The position numbers and the translations under genes were made by a program. This document shows, piece after piece, positions 2,797-11,585 of a DNA stretch of 12,604 nucleotides (position 1 is the stretch's first letter; each line of letters starts with the position of its first letter). The notes beneath the pieces are model-generated. The model had not been told where the DNA came from and did no database searches. It saw nothing but the letters and a program-made list of their open reading frames with translations. Source of the stretch: Candidatus Atribacteria bacterium (lineage in GTDB: Bacteria > Atribacterota > JS1 > SB-45 > 34-128); NCBI GenBank assembly GCA_003451675.1, contig DMCY01000046.1, positions 1 to 12,604 on the forward strand, written 5' to 3'.

Positions 2797-5700
2797 ATGA
2801 ATAAAACTATGGTTAAAGAATTGTATAACAAAATATCTAAAAAGATTTTACACACACAGATGTTAGATGATATCTCTTTAGATAAAGAGTTGGTTAGAAA
2901 ATATATTGAAAATCCTCCATTTTTAAAACAATTATCATCTATGGTAGAAAAGAAAGATTATAGCTGTCAGGCAGTATATTTTTTGTGTAAAGACCTGCTT
3001 GTCGATATAGACAAAAAACATAATCCCACTAATTGGCTTTATCAGGTATTTCAATTTGTCCTCTCTAAATCTTTTCCGGAAGCAGCAGATCTATCCCTTA
3101 AGGATATCTCCTATAATTGCCAAAAGACTTTCTTGCTTTATTTAGAATTTTTAAGAGTAATTTTGGATTTTCAAAAATTGTCCGGTGATTTTACTTTCCA
3201 CAGCAAATATTCCCTTAATTTTTTAACTTTTGAAGAAAAAAACAAACTGGAAAATCCTGCTGAATATAAAAGATTTTTAAAGGCATTTAATGATGAATAT
3301 ATTTATGAGATGATGAAATTAAGCCAGGAAGTTTTAAAGTTCAATACCTTAGACCATATATGCGGGGTAAATTGGATTGCTTTGTTTATCGGCAGGCAGT
3401 TATATAATCTGGGTCTTCCCGTTGATTTGGGGAGGATTTCGGGAGCAGCAGCAGGACATGATATCGGAAAATATGGGTGTAAAGATATTGAGGTAGAAAG
3501 AACTCCCTATTTACATTATTACTATACTGATATGTGGTTTAAAAAACATAATATCCCTTATATCGGACATATTGCAGTTAATCATTCTGTTTGGGATTTA
3601 GAATTAGAAAATTTACCCCTGGAATCACTTATATTAATTTATTCTGATTTTCGGGTTAAAAATACTAATAACGGTTCTAAGTCGGAGATGAAAATCTTTA
3701 GTCTAAAAGATTCTTTTCAAGTAATTTTAGACAAACTGGATAATGTTGATGAGAAAAAAAGAAAAAGATATTATCGAGTTTATGAGAAATTAAAAGACTT
3801 TGAAGATTATATGATAAATTTAGGGGTAAACGTAGATGTAGAGAATAAAGAGATAAGTTCTTATAAAAAAGATAGAAAACCGTATTATTCTCTTATGCAG
3901 GGTCAAGAAGTTATCCAGAATATAAAATTTCTTTCTATAGAACATAATATAAGTTTAATGTACGAACTTCGAGATGAATCTTCTCTTAATTCGCTTTTAG
4001 AATTAGCTCGAAGTGAAAAAGATTGGAATAATCTACAGGAATATCTACAAATATTTAATGAATATTCCACCTACTTCACTCAAAAACAGAAGATGATTAC
4101 TTTGAGATATTTATACGAACAGTTAACTCATCCGGAAGATGAAATAAGAAGGAGAAGTGCAAAGCTTATCGGTTTATTGATTGCCAGCTTTGACGAAGAT
4201 TACCGTAAAGAGATTCCTCGGGATGTTACTCTGGAACCTCCATCAGTTACCAGTGTAGATTTATTGGAAAGATATTTAAAATACTTTTTGCAGCCAGACC
4301 ATAAAAAGATTGCTCTTCATCAATCTCGTATTATTAATAGCACTGAGAATATGATTTCCTCTCTCTTTTCTAACTGTCGCAATAATTATCAGGTAAGCAA
4401 TTATAGAAAAAGTATTTTAAAATACTATAAAAAAGACCTGTATACCGATGAAGAAATTCAACTGTGTTTGATAAAAACCGCCAAACATATATCAATCTAT
4501 TCAGATGAAAAATCTGTAAAGGTATTATTTGATTATATTATAAAGATGTTGAAGAAAGAGAATCACAATCTTAGGCTTACTGCTTTAGAGGTAGTCTATG
4601 ATTTAATACCCCAAATTGATAAAAAATTTAGATTTATAAATAACTTAAGAAAATTATTTGCTGGTAATATTTCTACCTCAGTACTCCCTGCTGAAAATTA
4701 TTTAAATATGAAGATAGTTGAATTATTAGGTTTGGATGAAAGCATTGTAAAAAAGTACATCGAATTTTATCGAAGAGACATAGAAAAGATACAGTATATA
4801 TTTCTAAGCAACCTTAAAACTTCAACCAGTGGAATAATTAAAAAAATTCAGATAGAATTTTTATTAGAACATACTTTAAAGAGCAAACAGGAAGAAATCT
4901 ATACTGCTTTGCATTTTTGTAATATTTTAAAAGTTAGCGGCATAGAAGATATTAGAAATTTGGCTGGTAAAGCTTTGGTAAATTTAATGCCTTCCTTATC
5001 TTTTCAACAGAGGAATGATATAGCCATTGAACTATTGCGGGCTTTAGAAATGGAAGATTATCAATTTACTAAATATATTCCTTACTATTTAGGACAATTA
5101 ATACTTCATCTAACACCTAATGAATTAGAGGAACTTATTGATGATTTAATAGAAAAAATAAAACAGTCAGATCCCAAATTAAGCTCATTACTGCTTAGAA
5201 CAGTTGGTATAGCCATCGCTAATTATCCTAAGTACCGAGAAAGATTTTCAAAAAAAGAAAAATCATATGAAAACAGACTTAACAAGATGATAGGTATCCT
5301 TTTGAATGGTTTTGTCCACTATAATTTAAAGGTTAAACAGGCAGCTTTTAGAGTTATTGGTAGGGAAATATTTGGCTCAAGACATCTTAGTTTAGAAGAA
5401 AAAAACCACATATTTCAACTTATTGCCAAAAAAATTCTTACTCTGTTAACTCCTGTAACTAAAGAAGGTCTGATGTTTTTAATAAGTTGCACCGGACTTA
5501 ATTATATGTATAAATTTATTTCTGATTATAATTTTTTCAGGGGAAACATAAATCTTGAAACCCCGGACAAAATAGCTTTCTTCCCAGGAGCTTTTGACCC
5601 ATTTTCCTTAAGCCACAAAGAGATTATAAAAGCAATAGAAGCACTCGGATTTGAAACGTACTTAGCAGTTGATGAATTTTCCTGGTCTAAAAGGACTCAG

Positions 5701-7722
5701 CCACACCTCTTTAGAAAGAATATAATAAATATTTCCATTGCTGATGAACTTAATGTATATTTATATCCCGAAGATTTACCGGTTAATATCGCCAATTCAG
5801 ATAATTTAAAGACTTTAAGAGAAAATTTTCCATTTTCTGAGGTTTATATTGTAGTAGGCAGTGATGTTGTATTGAATGCCTCTGCTTATCAAAAAAACAA
5901 AAGAAAAAATTCCATACATACTTTTTCTCATATTGTTTTTGATAGAAGAACTCCACATACTGCTGATGAGAAAGAAAAAATGGTTCAAGAAGCTATTAAA
6001 AAAATAAAAGGAAAAATCATAAAACTTAATCTTACCTCTTGTTATGAAGAAATAAGTTCGAGTCAAATAAGAAGTAATATAGATGAAAATAGAGACATTT
6101 CCAGACTTATTGACCCTTTGGCTCAGAAATATATTTACGAAAATAGTTTATACCAAAGAGAACCACAATATAAGAGTGTAATACAAACTATCTCTATTGA
6201 TATACAGATAGTTGAAAATATTACCCCGGATTTAATAGAAGAACTTTTCCAGAAAATACTTTCTAAATATAATCGAAATGAAGTATTTAAAAAGTTAGTC
6301 GAGTTTACTCATAAAGTAAATTCGAGAATTTTGCTATTACGTGATGTTCGCCACAATGGAATGATATTGGGTTTTTCAGCATTTCATTGGGTTCGTTCAA
6401 ACATTCTTTTCCAGGAGTTTAAGGACAACTTAATATCTGAGTATATCCGGGAAAATGCAGTTGGCCGTATTATAGTTATTGATGGTATTTTTACCATAAG
6501 TGATACGGAAAATAAATCAGAGCTTGAAAACCTCGAACAGGTTATTCTTACCGAAACCCTTTCTTTTTGTATAGAGAAAGATTACAATTATACGATATTT
6601 AGGAATGTATTAAACAATTATCCTTTGGCTTCTTTAAACGAGAACTTAGGACTTATGGGATTTTATCGCTTACCTTTCAGCGATAAAGATAATCCGGTAT
6701 TTGTAGTGGATATGAGTAAACCCTGTATAGTCAATCTGGATACCGAGTCAATTATAAAGGAACCTTTTTGCCAAAATTTAAACATTAAAAAATCAGTTAT
6801 AATATCACGTAAAAGATTATTAAAATCGTTTACTACTTTTTATCCCGGGAATATTGTTTTACCATTTAATATAAATTTGATTAACCAGACTATTGTAAAG
6901 AAAATTTGCAAGATAAACGATGTTTCTACAACGCCGTTAATCCCACGAACTTTAGGAAGGTCAATGTGTGTGCCTTTCGGAAAGATACTGCATAAGATGG
7001 TAGTACCCAATACTGTAACTAAATCTCTCCATACGGAAAAAATATTTGCTTCTAATATGAAAAGTTTTAAGATTGGTGCCTTCCCCAATTATATGAGTCT
7101 GGAAAATCAGGTTAAGATGATTCGTTCATTTAATATGCCCGTAATTCTTATTGATGACTATTTACATAAAGGATATAGAATAAAGACCCTTGAGCCTCTA
7201 TTTAAAAAATATGATATTAAAATTAAAAAAATAATTGTGGGAGCACTATCCGGTAGTGGGAAAGAGATAGCAACTATATTAAATAGAGATGCTGATTGTG
7301 CTCATTTTATTCCCAATCTCAGGCTTTGGTTTAATGAAAGTGAATTGTATCCTTTTGTTGGTGGAGATGCATTAATGAGAAAGATAAGGACTCAGGGAAA
7401 TTTAGTTAGGTCTATCAATCAGGTACTACCCTATACTTTCCCTTCATTTATTAAAAATGTTTCTGCAAAAACTATCTATAATTTTTCCGAAGTTTGTATT
7501 GAAAATGCCTTAACTATATTAGAAGCTCTGGAAAATGAATACCAAGTAATTCAACAAAGAAAGTTAACTTTAGACCATTTAGGAGAAGTAATTATTTATC
7601 CCCGATATCCTGACCAGGGAGAAGATATGGATTATAATCTAAATCTTAGTCCTTCTCATTATTTAGGAAATAGCCTTGAACTTTTACGACGTACCAAAGG
7701 AATAGCAGACAGGGAAATGTGA
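2797..7722 (+). CDS. Giant HD / HEAT-like / NadD-like / GNAT-like / PRTase-like protein
   Basis: This 1641-residue cytoplasmic protein (no signal peptide or membrane segment seen) joins several nucleotide-related modules. Residues 180-290 form an HD phosphohydrolase domain: H187, H221-D222 in AGHDIGKYG, H258/H263 and D284. Residues about 400-915 are helical with HEAT-like segments (451-461, 591-604, 718-731, 843-856). Residues 925-1118 are a NadD-type nucleotidyltransferase with FFPGAFDPFSLSH and ISSSQIR (1086-1092); the usual HxGH is SLSH, keeping H940. Residues about 1130-1305 resemble a GNAT acetyltransferase. Residues about 1380-1560 contain VILIDDYLHKGYR (D1453, D1454, G1459), like the PRPP loop of type I phosphoribosyltransferases. 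NadD and the HD protein YqeK are neighbours or fused in many bacteria, which makes the pairing meaningful. The substrate is unknown. A modest AGGATGG (2784-2790) precedes the ATG. HD and NadD calls are firm; the GNAT and PRTase calls are tentative. Confidence 0.8.
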   Translation: MNKTMVKELYNKISKKILHTQMLDDISLDKELVRKYIENPPFLKQLSSMVEKKDYSCQAVYFLCKDLLVDIDKKHNPTNWLYQVFQFVLSKSFPEAADLSLKDISYNCQKTFLLYLEFLRVILDFQKLSGDFTFHSKYSLNFLTFEEKNKLENPAEYKRFLKAFNDEYIYEMMKLSQEVLKFNTLDHICGVNWIALFIGRQLYNLGLPVDLGRISGAAAGHDIGKYGCKDIEVERTPYLHYYYTDMWFKKHNIPYIGHIAVNHSVWDLELENLPLESLILIYSDFRVKNTNNGSKSEMKIFSLKDSFQVILDKLDNVDEKKRKRYYRVYEKLKDFEDYMINLGVNVDVENKEISSYKKDRKPYYSLMQGQEVIQNIKFLSIEHNISLMYELRDESSLNSLLELARSEKDWNNLQEYLQIFNEYSTYFTQKQKMITLRYLYEQLTHPEDEIRRRSAKLIGLLIASFDEDYRKEIPRDVTLEPPSVTSVDLLERYLKYFLQPDHKKIALHQSRIINSTENMISSLFSNCRNNYQVSNYRKSILKYYKKDLYTDEEIQLCLIKTAKHISIYSDEKSVKVLFDYIIKMLKKENHNLRLTALEVVYDLIPQIDKKFRFINNLRKLFAGNISTSVLPAENYLNMKIVELLGLDESIVKKYIEFYRRDIEKIQYIFLSNLKTSTSGIIKKIQIEFLLEHTLKSKQEEIYTALHFCNILKVSGIEDIRNLAGKALVNLMPSLSFQQRNDIAIELLRALEMEDYQFTKYIPYYLGQLILHLTPNELEELIDDLIEKIKQSDPKLSSLLLRTVGIAIANYPKYRERFSKKEKSYENRLNKMIGILLNGFVHYNLKVKQAAFRVIGREIFGSRHLSLEEKNHIFQLIAKKILTLLTPVTKEGLMFLISCTGLNYMYKFISDYNFFRGNINLETPDKIAFFPGAFDPFSLSHKEIIKAIEALGFETYLAVDEFSWSKRTQPHLFRKNIINISIADELNVYLYPEDLPVNIANSDNLKTLRENFPFSEVYIVVGSDVVLNASAYQKNKRKNSIHTFSHIVFDRRTPHTADEKEKMVQEAIKKIKGKIIKLNLTSCYEEISSSQIRSNIDENRDISRLIDPLAQKYIYENSLYQREPQYKSVIQTISIDIQIVENITPDLIEELFQKILSKYNRNEVFKKLVEFTHKVNSRILLLRDVRHNGMILGFSAFHWVRSNILFQEFKDNLISEYIRENAVGRIIVIDGIFTISDTENKSELENLEQVILTETLSFCIEKDYNYTIFRNVLNNYPLASLNENLGLMGFYRLPFSDKDNPVFVVDMSKPCIVNLDTESIIKEPFCQNLNIKKSVIISRKRLLKSFTTFYPGNIVLPFNINLINQTIVKKICKINDVSTTPLIPRTLGRSMCVPFGKILHKMVVPNTVTKSLHTEKIFASNMKSFKIGAFPNYMSLENQVKMIRSFNMPVILIDDYLHKGYRIKTLEPLFKKYDIKIKKIIVGALSGSGKEIATILNRDADCAHFIPNLRLWFNESELYPFVGGDALMRKIRTQGNLVRSINQVLPYTFPSFIKNVSAKTIYNFSEVCIENALTILEALENEYQVIQQRKLTLDHLGEVIIYPRYPDQGEDMDYNLNLSPSHYLGNSLELLRRTKGIADREM

Positions 7723-7954: not shown

Positions 7955-9199
7955 ATGTTCTTCTATAAACTAAAAGATAAAATACTAATTTCCCAATCGG
8001 AATACAATAAATTAAATAGAATATCTGAAAGCGAAGTTAAAGAGAGCAAAGAAATAATTTATGTACTTAATCGGATAAACCCTTTAAAATCAAGAAGAAA
8101 TTTTTGTATTTCCGATTCCTCTCTTATTTTTTTAAAAGAAGAGGGTATCCACCTACTGCAAAAAGCCAAGAAGATTGATTTCAACTTACCTCCATGGCTT
8201 AAAGAAAGAATAAAAGAAAAAAGAGTGAGTTCACTTAATACCGAATATCCTAACTGGCAAGATGTATTAAATTATAAATTTCCTTCCCGGTGGAAAGTTA
8301 ATATTGTAGGATTGGGTGATGTAGGAGGGGTTCTCCTTACCGGTTTGAGATTATTGGGAGGAAGTTGTATTGAATCTATCGGAATATATGATAAAAATAT
8401 AAACGCGATAAAAAGATGGAAATTAGAAGCAAATCAAATATTTTGTCCTTTTACTGCTTACAAATTTCCTGAGGTTTACCAGTTAAGAGAAGAGAATATT
8501 TTTGATTGTGATATATTTATATTTTGTGCAACTGTAGGAGTTCCTTCTTTGAGAGAAGAACAAGAAGATGTGAGAATGAAGCAATTTGAAGGAAATTTTA
8601 AGATAATCTCTGATTATGCCCGAAAGGCCCGGGAGAAATCGTTTAAGGGGATATTTGCAGTTATCTCAGACCCGGTAGACTTATTGTGCAAAGCTGTTTT
8701 TCTGAGCAGCAATAAAAGTACAAGCGGAGAGTTTGATTTTAAAGGATTAGCAGCAGACCAGATAAGAGGATATGGCTTAGGAGTGATGCATGCCCGGGCA
8801 GTCTATTATTCAAAACAAAATACTGAAACTGCTGAATATAATCGTGAAGGCAGAGCCTTTGGCCCCCATGGTCAAGGTTTGGTAATTGCCAACAGCTTAA
8901 AAAAATATGATGAAAGTCTTTCCGAGATGCTTACCGCTCAGACCGTAAAAGCAAATTTAGAAGTGAGGAGGACCGGTTTTAAACCTTATGTAGCTCCTGC
9001 CTTATCTTCCGGAAGCTATCCCCTTATTGCTACTATGAGTGGAAAATGGCATTATAGTGCAACTTTTATAGGGGGAGTATTTATGGGAGCAAAAAATAGA
9101 TCGATTAAATCAGGAATCGAAATTGAAAGATTAGATCTTCCAGTTATTTTAGTAGAGAAAATTAAAAGAAGTTATCAGGAATTGGGCAATATTTTATAA
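7955..9199 (+). CDS. Lactate/malate-dehydrogenase-like protein with N-terminal extension
   Basis: Residues about 113-375 follow the LDH/MDH superfamily. VNIVGLGDVGG (G119, G121, G124) is the dinucleotide-binding loop, and D146 ending GIYD favours NAD over NADP. CDIFIFCAT (185-193) is the strand beside the cofactor. VISDPVDLL (236-244) matches the usual VxNPVD but has D239 where Asn is expected. R281 in GVMHAR fits the substrate-carboxylate Arg, and H305 in GPHGQG fits the catalytic His of GEHG. The protein has 414 residues against about 310-330 for ordinary enzymes; the surplus is an N-terminal region of about 110 residues with no motif I recognise. The Asn-to-Asp change and altered loops suggest a substrate other than lactate or malate. 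AGAAGGGG (7942-7949) sets the start. It is first of three closely spaced genes; the next starts 27 bp on. Confidence 0.75.
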   Translation: MFFYKLKDKILISQSEYNKLNRISESEVKESKEIIYVLNRINPLKSRRNFCISDSSLIFLKEEGIHLLQKAKKIDFNLPPWLKERIKEKRVSSLNTEYPNWQDVLNYKFPSRWKVNIVGLGDVGGVLLTGLRLLGGSCIESIGIYDKNINAIKRWKLEANQIFCPFTAYKFPEVYQLREENIFDCDIFIFCATVGVPSLREEQEDVRMKQFEGNFKIISDYARKAREKSFKGIFAVISDPVDLLCKAVFLSSNKSTSGEFDFKGLAADQIRGYGLGVMHARAVYYSKQNTETAEYNREGRAFGPHGQGLVIANSLKKYDESLSEMLTAQTVKANLEVRRTGFKPYVAPALSSGSYPLIATMSGKWHYSATFIGGVFMGAKNRSIKSGIEIERLDLPVILVEKIKRSYQELGNIL

Positions 9200-9226: not shown

Positions 9227-10279
9227 ATGGAAACGATTTATTTGATTATGCCGGGAAAAATATCGGATAGTTTTGCCGAAGTTATCAAAATAGCTACAGA
9301 AAATTATAAATTAACAATTATAAAAACTTTTCAGGATTTTCCTGTTAATTTACGAAATAAAAAGATTATATTTGCTATTGAATTAGATGAATGCGGATTT
9401 AATATTCCTTTATTTGAAATGCTTCTAAAATTAAAGGAAAGAGAAGATGATTCCCTTTTAGGTTCAAGAGCCGTAATTATAATCCAAAGTTCAAGTGAAT
9501 TGTTTACCAAGAGCACTGCTCAAAAGATAATTTTTTTAACCAACCAGATGGGGTGCAGATTCCCCGGTCATCCAGTTGTAGAGGCTACTTACAATCTCTA
9601 TAATTTTCTTACCTGGCAAAGAACTTTTAAACTACCACTTATAGAGATTTACAAAAAACAGTCTAAAGAATTAGCAAAAAAATTAATAGAGGAGAATTTA
9701 AAATTAATTAACAGACCAAAGATACTTGTGTTGCATTCGAGTTTGTTTAAGACTTCTAATACTCTTATGCTCTGGAGAATGCTAAAAAAAAATCTTATCG
9801 GAGAAGATATAAAAGAACTCCATGTAGAAAATGGAACTGTAGTAGATTGCAGAGGATGTTCTTATAAAACCTGCATCCATTATAGTGAAGAAAAAAGCTG
9901 TTTTTATGGAGGAATTATGGTAAAAGAAATTCTCCCTGCGATAGAAGAAGCAGATTGTATAATCTGGTTGTGTCCTAATTATAATGACGCAATATCCGCA
10001 AAGCTTATGGCAGTTATAAATAGAATGACTGTTCTTTATAAGAGGGTGAAATTTGGAAATAAAACTATATTTTCCATTGTGGTTTCCGGAAATTCAGGAA
10101 GTGATTGTGTGGCTAAACAGTTAATAGGAGCTTTAAATATTAACAAAGGATTTAGACTGCCTCCATATTTTGCTTTAACCGCTACTGCTAATGACCCCGG
10201 GTCAATAATGAATGTTTTGAGAATAGACCAAAAAGCAAAAGAATTTGCTGAAAACATAAAAAGAGAAATTAAAAAATAA
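9227..10279 (+). CDS. Flavodoxin-fold NAD(P)H-dependent reductase, two-part
   Basis: The C-terminal half (about 164-345) is a flavodoxin-like NADPH-dependent FMN reductase domain: KILVLHSSLFKTSNT holds the phosphate-binding loop for FMN, and CIIWLCPNYNDAISAKLM is the strand and loop typical of the family. Between them lies a cysteine cluster, C208, C211, C216 and C225 (CRGCSYKTC, then SC), similar to the CxGCxxC element of iron-sulfur flavoproteins and related reductases, so an Fe-S or other metal site is possible. The N-terminal 160 residues look like a decayed copy of the same alternating strand/helix fold (IIFAIELDECGFNIPLFEML resembles the second FMN loop) without the key glycines. AGAGGA at 9212-9217 supports the start. 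It sits between the dehydrogenase-like gene and rlmN. The electron acceptor is unknown. Confidence 0.75.
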   Translation: METIYLIMPGKISDSFAEVIKIATENYKLTIIKTFQDFPVNLRNKKIIFAIELDECGFNIPLFEMLLKLKEREDDSLLGSRAVIIIQSSSELFTKSTAQKIIFLTNQMGCRFPGHPVVEATYNLYNFLTWQRTFKLPLIEIYKKQSKELAKKLIEENLKLINRPKILVLHSSLFKTSNTLMLWRMLKKNLIGEDIKELHVENGTVVDCRGCSYKTCIHYSEEKSCFYGGIMVKEILPAIEEADCIIWLCPNYNDAISAKLMAVINRMTVLYKRVKFGNKTIFSIVVSGNSGSDCVAKQLIGALNINKGFRLPPYFALTATANDPGSIMNVLRIDQKAKEFAENIKREIKK

Positions 10280-10302: not shown

Positions 10303-11334
10303 ATGATTATACAGAAGAAAGATATTAAAAATTTCACCTTAAACGAATTACAAGAAGAGGTTAAAAATTTAGGAGTTGAAAAATATAGGGCAGCTCAATT
10401 ATTTGATTTACTTTATAAGAAGGGCATAGAAGATTTCAGGGAAATGTTGAGTCTCCCAGCATCATTTAGAGATTTACTTCAAGAAAATTATTATATAAGT
10501 AAGATAGAGTTAGCTAAATTGCTTAAATCAAAAGACCAAACTGAGAAATATTTATTTAAGTTAGAAGATGAAAATTTAATAGAAAGTGTTCTAATATTTT
10601 CCAATAAAAGAGTTACTGAATGTATATCTTCCCAAATTGGCTGTAAATATAACTGTTTGTTTTGCGAAAGTGGCAAAAAGGGTTTTAGCAGGAACCTTAC
10701 AGTTAGCGAGATTTTAAATCAAGTTTTATTTGTTAAGAAAAAAATGAAGTCCAATCCCAATAATATTGTATTTATGGGTATCGGGGAGCCTTTAGACAAT
10801 TATGATAATGTTGTAAAAGCCATTTGTGTATTAAATTCTAAAGATACATTTGACATTGGAGCAAGAAAGATTACTATCTCTACCTGCGGGATAATACCGG
10901 CTATAAAAAGATTGCAAAAGCGTAATTGGCAGATAGAACTATCGGTTTCTCTGCATGCCCCGGAAAACAAATTAAGGTCTTATCTAATGCCGGTAAACAA
11001 TCTGTATCCTTTACCTGATTTGATAGAAGTATGCAGGAATTATACGGATAAAACTAATAGACAGATTACTTTTGAATACATTTTAATTAAAGGAGTGAAT
11101 GATTCAGTAAATTACGCAGATAAACTGGCTAAACTAATTGGTGGGTTTAATTCAAAAGTAAATCTAATTACTTTTAACCCTGCTCCCGACTCTTTATTGC
11201 CACCCGCTGCTCCCCAGGTTAAATCTTTTAAAAATGAATTGATAGCCAAGGGAATTCCAACTACTATAAGAATATCAAAAGGTGACGATATCTCTGCTGC
11301 ATGTGGTCAGCTAAAGAGCCTGCATCTAAAATAA
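10303..11334 (+). CDS. rlmN: RlmN-type radical SAM rRNA/tRNA adenine-C2 methyltransferase
   Basis: RlmN methylates C2 of A2503 in 23S rRNA, and A37 of some tRNAs, using two SAM molecules. The radical SAM motif CKYNCLFC (C114, C118, C121) binds the 4Fe-4S cluster, and FMGIGEPLDN (157-166) is the SAM-binding GEP motif. The two mechanistic cysteines of the family are present: C107 in ECISSQIGC and C334 in GDDISAACGQL. The N-terminal 70 residues match the RlmN accessory helical domain (KYRAAQLFDLLYKKGI). The 343-residue length is normal. No strong Shine-Dalgarno is seen before the ATG, and the gene starts 23 bp after the reductase, so translation may depend on the upstream gene. A diverged RlmN paralogue is possible, but all catalytic residues are kept. 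Confidence 0.92.
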   Translation: MIIQKKDIKNFTLNELQEEVKNLGVEKYRAAQLFDLLYKKGIEDFREMLSLPASFRDLLQENYYISKIELAKLLKSKDQTEKYLFKLEDENLIESVLIFSNKRVTECISSQIGCKYNCLFCESGKKGFSRNLTVSEILNQVLFVKKKMKSNPNNIVFMGIGEPLDNYDNVVKAICVLNSKDTFDIGARKITISTCGIIPAIKRLQKRNWQIELSVSLHAPENKLRSYLMPVNNLYPLPDLIEVCRNYTDKTNRQITFEYILIKGVNDSVNYADKLAKLIGGFNSKVNLITFNPAPDSLLPPAAPQVKSFKNELIAKGIPTTIRISKGDDISAACGQLKSLHLK

Positions 11335-11341
11335 GTTACAA

Positions 11342-11378
11342 GGGCGTATGTAATACGCCCCTACTTTTTCTCTCTTTT
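11342..11378 (+). terminator. Terminator after rlmN (GGGCGTAT hairpin)
   Basis: GGGCGTAT (11342-11349) pairs perfectly with ATACGCCC (11353-11360) around a GTA loop, and CTACTTTTTCTCTCTTTT follows. It starts seven bases past the rlmN stop and probably ends the three-gene operon. Palindromes with this core also occur as dispersed repeats in various bacterial genomes (recalled, not checked). Confidence 0.75.
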
Positions 11379-11509: not shown

Positions 11510-11585
11510 GGGCCCATAGCTCAGCTGGCAGAGCAACCGGCTCATAACCGGTCGGTCCCTGGTTCGAATCCAGGTGGGCCCACCA
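11510..11585 (+). tRNA. tRNA-Met (anticodon CAT), CCA encoded
   Basis: A complete 76-nt cloverleaf. Acceptor GGGCCCA (11510-11516) pairs with TGGGCCC (11575-11581), followed by discriminator A and encoded CCA (11583-11585). The anticodon stem is ACCGG/CCGGT (11536-11540, 11548-11552) around CTCATAA, giving CAT at 11543-11545. The T arm is CCTGG-TTCGAAT-CCAGG. A paired G1-C72 end and an anticodon stem lacking three consecutive G-C pairs next to the loop argue against the initiator. Elongator Met is the best call. A tRNA-Ile whose C34 is modified to lysidine also has CAT and cannot be fully excluded by eye. Confidence 0.93.

Follow-up and report, generated by a model that had tools for sequence, protein, structure and literature searches.

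The stretch of DNA analysed here (the window) comprises 12,604 nucleotides of a Candidatus Atribacteria bacterium contig (DMCY01000046.1) and carries, on its plus strand, an unbroken open reading frame for a giant protein of 1641 amino acids (positions 2797-7722). Two further genes follow on the same strand, one for a 414-amino-acid member of the lactate dehydrogenase (LDH) superfamily (7955-9199) and one for a 350-amino-acid FMN-reductase-like flavoprotein (9227-10279) with four conserved cysteines (Cys 208, 211, 216 and 225). A preliminary description, made from the letters of the sequence, had reported the single 1641-codon frame, which is present as described, and had divided its product into HD, HEAT-like, NadD-type, GNAT-like and phosphoribosyltransferase (PRTase)-like parts. 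These five modules are backed unequally: the HD and NadD-fold domains strongly, the HEAT solenoid clearly, the GNAT part in its fold though not in its acetyl-CoA loop, and the C-terminal PRTase-like part only moderately.

Conservation was counted over a core set of 40 members and over a wider alignment of 84-87 rows, a few of which represent the same gene twice, and fold searches were run on structure predictions made for the two halves of the giant. Following a weakly conserved N-terminal helical region (residues 1-130; 2797-3186), delimited by the model and the alignment, the HD phosphohydrolase domain occupies residues 131-345 (3187-3831). The HD superfamily model (PF01966) matches 40/40 members at E≤1 (best 2.9e-7), with the window giant alone scoring below the curated cut-off, and residues H187, H221, D222, H240, H263, D284 and K225 are invariant in all 40, among them the His-Asp pair at 221-222 by which the domain had originally been recognised. 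The six metal ligands are likewise kept in 83 of the 84 rows of the wider set; the HD domain is the best conserved module of the giant. The helical spacer proposed earlier corresponds to a HEAT/ARM-like solenoid (residues 371-912; 3907-5532), defined by the structure model and by fold matches that are mainly to scaffolds of protein or RNA complexes.

The NadD-fold adenylyltransferase domain (residues 920-1125; 5554-6171) was also borne out. Its fold was confirmed by fold search, in which the nearest folds are small-molecule enzymes; the window giant matches the NadD model with an E-value of 3.3e-12, versus 3.8e-4 for CoaD; and the ATP motifs G-x-FDPxxxxH and ISSxxIR are present, the seven NadD-motif residues checked all being kept in 81/87 rows. 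The domain thus shares its fold and ATP-binding motifs with NadD (TIGR00482), whereas its score of 46.8 bits lies below the equivalog cut-off of 112.45 bits and its acceptor loop is altered. The GNAT fold of residues 1131-1310 (6187-6726) was confirmed in the same manner. Acetyltransferases of this fold bind acetyl-CoA through a loop of the pattern R/Q-x-x-G-x-G/A, which stands at the expected position in only 2/40 members and anywhere in 7/40. The C-terminal domain (residues 1318-1641; 6748-7719) is matched by Pfam Pribosyltran (PF00156) in 22/40 members at E≤1, its comparison with the type I PRTase family by hhalign is weak (E 0.003, probability 10%), and a relative, P0271, carries a precomputed PF00156 assignment. 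Type I PRTases bind phosphoribosyl pyrophosphate (PRPP) through a DDxxxTGxT loop; the corresponding motif of the giant (residues 1449-1461) retains DD in 39/40 and G in 40/40 members. Because the acetyl-CoA loop is mostly lost and the PRPP loop altered, the GNAT part should not yet be called an active acetyltransferase, nor the C-terminus an active PRTase. In the fold searches, matches to the NadD domain and the solenoid took up the lists, so that the PRTase-like assignment draws on the profile matches.

Of 7,998 scored candidates, 5,772 match the window giant at E≤1e-3, and the best 120 matches listed, the first being the window's own, show at least 51% identity over 89-100% of the query. With a distant clostridial giant (L038) as query, 7,221/7,995 candidates match, the best 120 listed being 47-99% identical at 61-100% coverage. 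A scan of species genomes yielded 53 giant loci from Atribacterota, Fervidicella, Alkalithermobacter, Anaerovorax, Mogibacterium, Blautia and others, and named carriers include Acetoanaerobium noterae, Alkalithermobacter and Caloramator. Full-length relatives occur in Atribacterota, where 19/50 genomes contain the giant (phylum of G005, locus L009), and in many Clostridia. Sources that name these relatives call them cytidyltransferase, nicotinate-nucleotide adenylyltransferase, phosphohydrolase or hypothetical protein. A false fusion or sequencing error is excluded by the many full-length copies from separate assemblies. The giant has no match in phage records, and two viral contigs found in a scan with two peptide patterns resemble it in the NadD part only. 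PADLOC detects no known defence system in the giant, the LDH-like partner or the flavoprotein. A plasmid origin was also rejected, the sole match in the plasmid collection being a 2.63-Mb record named plasmid; NZ_CP154629.1 (Acetoanaerobium noterae, 2.63 Mb) is titled 'plasmid' yet is chromosome-sized. In a midpoint-rooted tree of the NadD and C-terminal domains, from which a second Atribacterota group was left out, the window's Atribacterota group (about 13 rows) nests among clostridial sequences (support 0.968), a topology that suggests gene transfer between the two phyla.

The giant is accompanied by its redox partners in most loci. Over the 53 scanned loci plus the window (54 in total), an LDH-like gene lies directly 3' of the giant, on the same strand and within 340 bases, in 49, and in 38 of these the flavoprotein gene follows within 300 bases of the LDH-like gene; a further seven loci carry a flavoprotein of the same family outside the 300-base rule. 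The five loci without a counted LDH-like gene include one that ends 265 bases past the giant (L001) and two that end within it (L047 and L050); the other two (L007 and L010) do show an LDH-like frame in neighbour clustering. When starts are taken as those of the longest frame, the giant and LDH-like frames overlap in 17/49 loci. All three genes are present in Acetoanaerobium noterae. The association was also measured in 148 genomes of the order around Alkalithermobacter paradoxus (G001). After exclusion of 26 weak, NadD-like-only matches from 115, 89 genomes carry the giant (E≤4.2e-82); of 94 LDH-like matches, 7 were dropped as weak (E 5.3e-7 or worse), and each of these came from a genome lacking the giant. 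The LDH-like gene then occurs in 87/89 genomes with the giant (in G470 as a short piece beside it) and in 0/59 without (Fisher p 1.6e-39, with no correction for shared ancestry). In 299 genomes of the phylum, the same 4 carry both genes once 39 and 7 weak matches, respectively, are excluded.

Like L-lactate/malate dehydrogenases, the LDH-like partner has the NAD-binding half and retains the equivalents of LDH Arg109, Arg171 and His195. Unlike them, it carries Met278 in place of Asp168, leaving the His195-Asp168 relay incomplete, and Asp in place of the Asn of TNPVD; because of these two replacements, it is probably not a plain 2-hydroxyacid dehydrogenase. The flavoprotein partner found no match in a PDB search. 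In the second Atribacterota group, a nicotinamidase-like gene comes after the operon in 3/3 inspected loci (L182, 11576-12121; L183, 12472-13014; L184, 11537-12097), including L182, whose operon lacks the flavoprotein gene; that of L183 matches a PDB nicotinamidase at E 8.4e-40. This neighbourhood may reflect shared synteny. Some Atribacterota own a nicotinamidase-like gene despite the absence of nicotinate phosphoribosyltransferase (NAPRTase, PF04095) from all 50 genomes.

Some genomes hold two giant copies, and in these the catalytic sites can be parted. In G379, G416, G451 and G499, the copy within the LDH operon (L115, L118, L120 and L122) is shortened to 1075-1201 amino acids and has lost the HD domain while its NadD and PRPP-like motifs are intact, and a second copy elsewhere retains the HD domain. 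The NadD part is degenerate in three of these HD-keeping copies (L114, L119 and L121), the fourth (L117) ending at a contig edge before it, and the four cluster in the tree with a support of 0.957. The paralogue pairs are complementary, with HD in one copy and NadD in the other. Two additional copies (L123 and L127) also retain the HD domain, and their NadD site is altered. A second class (L125, L128, L129 and L130) has an APH-type kinase gene directly upstream and neither an LDH-like nor a flavoprotein gene; these small-molecule kinases score far below the cut-offs for resistance kinases. L131 resembles this class but lacks the kinase gene, and L127 has a convergent one, its giant lying downstream of a hydroxyproline dehydratase-like gene that scores just under its cut-off.

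A housekeeping role in NAD synthesis can be set aside: since all 20 tested giant-bearing genomes also encode a separate NadD above the curated cut-off, the giant is not their housekeeping NadD. A YqeK gene adjoins that ordinary NadD in 8/8 genomes. The distribution of NAPRTase lends no support to the giant filling in for a missing NAPRTase, this enzyme being present in 9/11 clostridial genomes checked.

In the open-licence literature no description of this architecture was found, but it has a partial precedent in the mycoplasma NadD-YqeK fusion JCVISYN3A_0380, the closest assayed relative of the giant, which is proposed to proofread NAD synthesis (PMC9426524). In both proteins an adenylyltransferase of the NadD fold shares one chain with an HD domain of the YqeK type. 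In contrast to the fusion, the giant places the HD domain first, inserts a solenoid some 540 residues long between the two, adds the GNAT fold and the PRTase-like domain, coexists with an ordinary NadD and has fixed LDH-like and flavoprotein partners. YqeK proteins bind two metals via six ligands (H, HD, H, H, D), and the lysine that stands four residues past the HD histidine matters as well, as two studies describe (PMC8177086, PMC11857287). The giant has the same six ligands and lysine as YqeK (TIGR00488) in 40/40 members, although the spacing of the site differs. Its likeness to YqeK lies in the active site rather than in the family model, and it is like a NadD-YqeK pair in its sites, yet curated models place it in neither family. 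The HD part of the DVU_1551 family NTP transferase (NF045665) also matches 40/40 members at E≤0.1, indicating that the union of HD and nucleotidyltransferase recurs; the likeness is confined to that part and is far under the curated cut-off.

From the observed modules, conserved sites, operon and complementary paralogues, we infer a set of reactions, substrates and a cooperation between the giant and its partners. Tentatively, and with somewhat less than even confidence, the giant could be a dedicated enzyme that both makes and breaks a dinucleotide resembling NAD, in concert with two redox partners. The PRTase-like C-terminus would bind or make a base-ribose-5'-phosphate, which the NadD-fold domain would adenylylate with ATP to yield the dinucleotide; the YqeK-type HD domain would split the pyrophosphate of that dinucleotide or of wrong products; the solenoid would tie the catalytic ends to each other; the role of the GNAT fold would probably be structural or binding; and the NAD-binding LDH-like enzyme and the four-Cys flavoprotein would use or regenerate the product. 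This is the simplest reading that employs every conserved site, and it is supported by NadD and HD sites that are intact and that separate from each other among paralogues, by the fixed partners and by the nicotinamidase neighbour. A more far-reaching version, which we consider unlikely, is that the giant uses PRPP, ATP and a base to build a NAD-like dinucleotide so far unrecognised, and that it also degrades this product. The operon, found in many Clostridia and Atribacterota, would then encode a novel nucleotide-based cofactor or signalling system, with the flavoprotein, as an iron-sulphur protein, and a dedicated dehydrogenase other than LDH as its users.

Several observations weigh against this proposal. 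The acceptor loop of the NadD domain is altered to D-x-F-SWSK, and nicotinate or nicotinamide mononucleotide may accordingly not be its substrate. The PRPP loop lacks T-G-x-T, an R replacing the last T in 40/40 members and T/S preceding the G in only 5/40, and no Pfam family matches the C-terminus of the window giant itself. The ten families that the 40 members match at E≤0.1 do not include TIGR00488, and hhalign against seven YqeKs is weak (E 0.069). NAPRTase is missing from the 50 Atribacterota genomes whether or not the giant is present. Additionally, second copies stand in varied contexts (APH-type kinase, PanB, CoaBC and the hydroxyproline dehydratase-like gene), and the giants of G464 and G486 are preceded by CoaBC with neither redox partner adjoining.

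Metabolite repair is the strongest rival, given the proofreading of NAD synthesis that has been proposed for the assayed NadD-YqeK fusion (PMC9426524). In this reading the HD domain would remove NAD(P)-type dinucleotides that are damaged or wrongly made, the NadD domain would remake them and the redox partners would restore the oxidation state. The prominence of HD as the best conserved module also fits such editing; we nonetheless hold it to be doubtful, as these organisms already own NadD and YqeK, and the PRTase-like domain and changed acceptor loop would be left unexplained. Synthesis-like and hydrolysis-like sites on a single chain could alternatively turn over a dinucleotide messenger such as diadenosine tetraphosphate (Ap4A), following a maker/breaker logic comparable to that of RelA/SpoT. 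The cleavage of Ap4A by YqeK proteins, described in the same studies, is in line with this (PMC8177086, PMC11857287), but two redox partners would be unusual for a signal, and the clustered neighbours of giant loci show no recurrent gene for a receptor or regulator; signal turnover appears quite unlikely.

The giant could instead attach a nucleotide to a macromolecule, either an RNA end or a protein, with the solenoid binding the target, in keeping with the protein- or RNA-complex scaffolds that make up most of its fold matches; such macromolecule modification seems highly improbable, given that solenoid repeats match each other broadly and that the nearest folds of the NadD domain act on small molecules. 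Least probable of all is a coenzyme A branch, in which the NadD-fold domain would adenylylate a pantetheine-type acceptor: phosphopantetheine adenylyltransferase has the same fold, CoaBC immediately precedes the giant in L180 and L181 and is also present in the L024 flank, and PanB is near the giant in L128, L129 and L131, whereas the NadD model fits far better than CoaD (E-values above) and neighbour clustering shows no CoA gene that recurs next to the main operon.

The remaining features of the window flank the operon. Upstream lie a CPBP/Rce1-like membrane protease (574-1206), nearest to the archaeomyxosortase MrtA model (1.4e-21, below its cut-off), a 176-amino-acid nucleoside diphosphate kinase (1426-1956), whose family profile matches in two stretches as if split by an insertion, and a 73-amino-acid frame (2131-2352) between kinase and giant, which we take to resemble the NifU C-terminal scaffold (CxxC). 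Downstream, an RlmN gene (10303-11334) lies 23 bases past the flavoprotein gene and is followed by a terminator-like hairpin (11342-11360) and a tRNA gene (11510-11582).

Collectively, the preliminary reading is partly supported. Both the HD and the nucleotidyltransferase parts were matched in profile searches, and its suggestion that the modules make, transfer and hydrolyse a nucleotide fits the conserved catalytic residues; the conserved operon, the paralogues and the mycoplasma precedent had escaped it. Many species have kept at full length (about 1,600 residues) a protein whose hydrolase site is invariant and whose adenylyltransferase site is intact, and the fixed partner genes narrow the candidate substrates. 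If the giant does make and break a dinucleotide, this would widen the NadD-YqeK pairing from housekeeping or repair to a special pathway.
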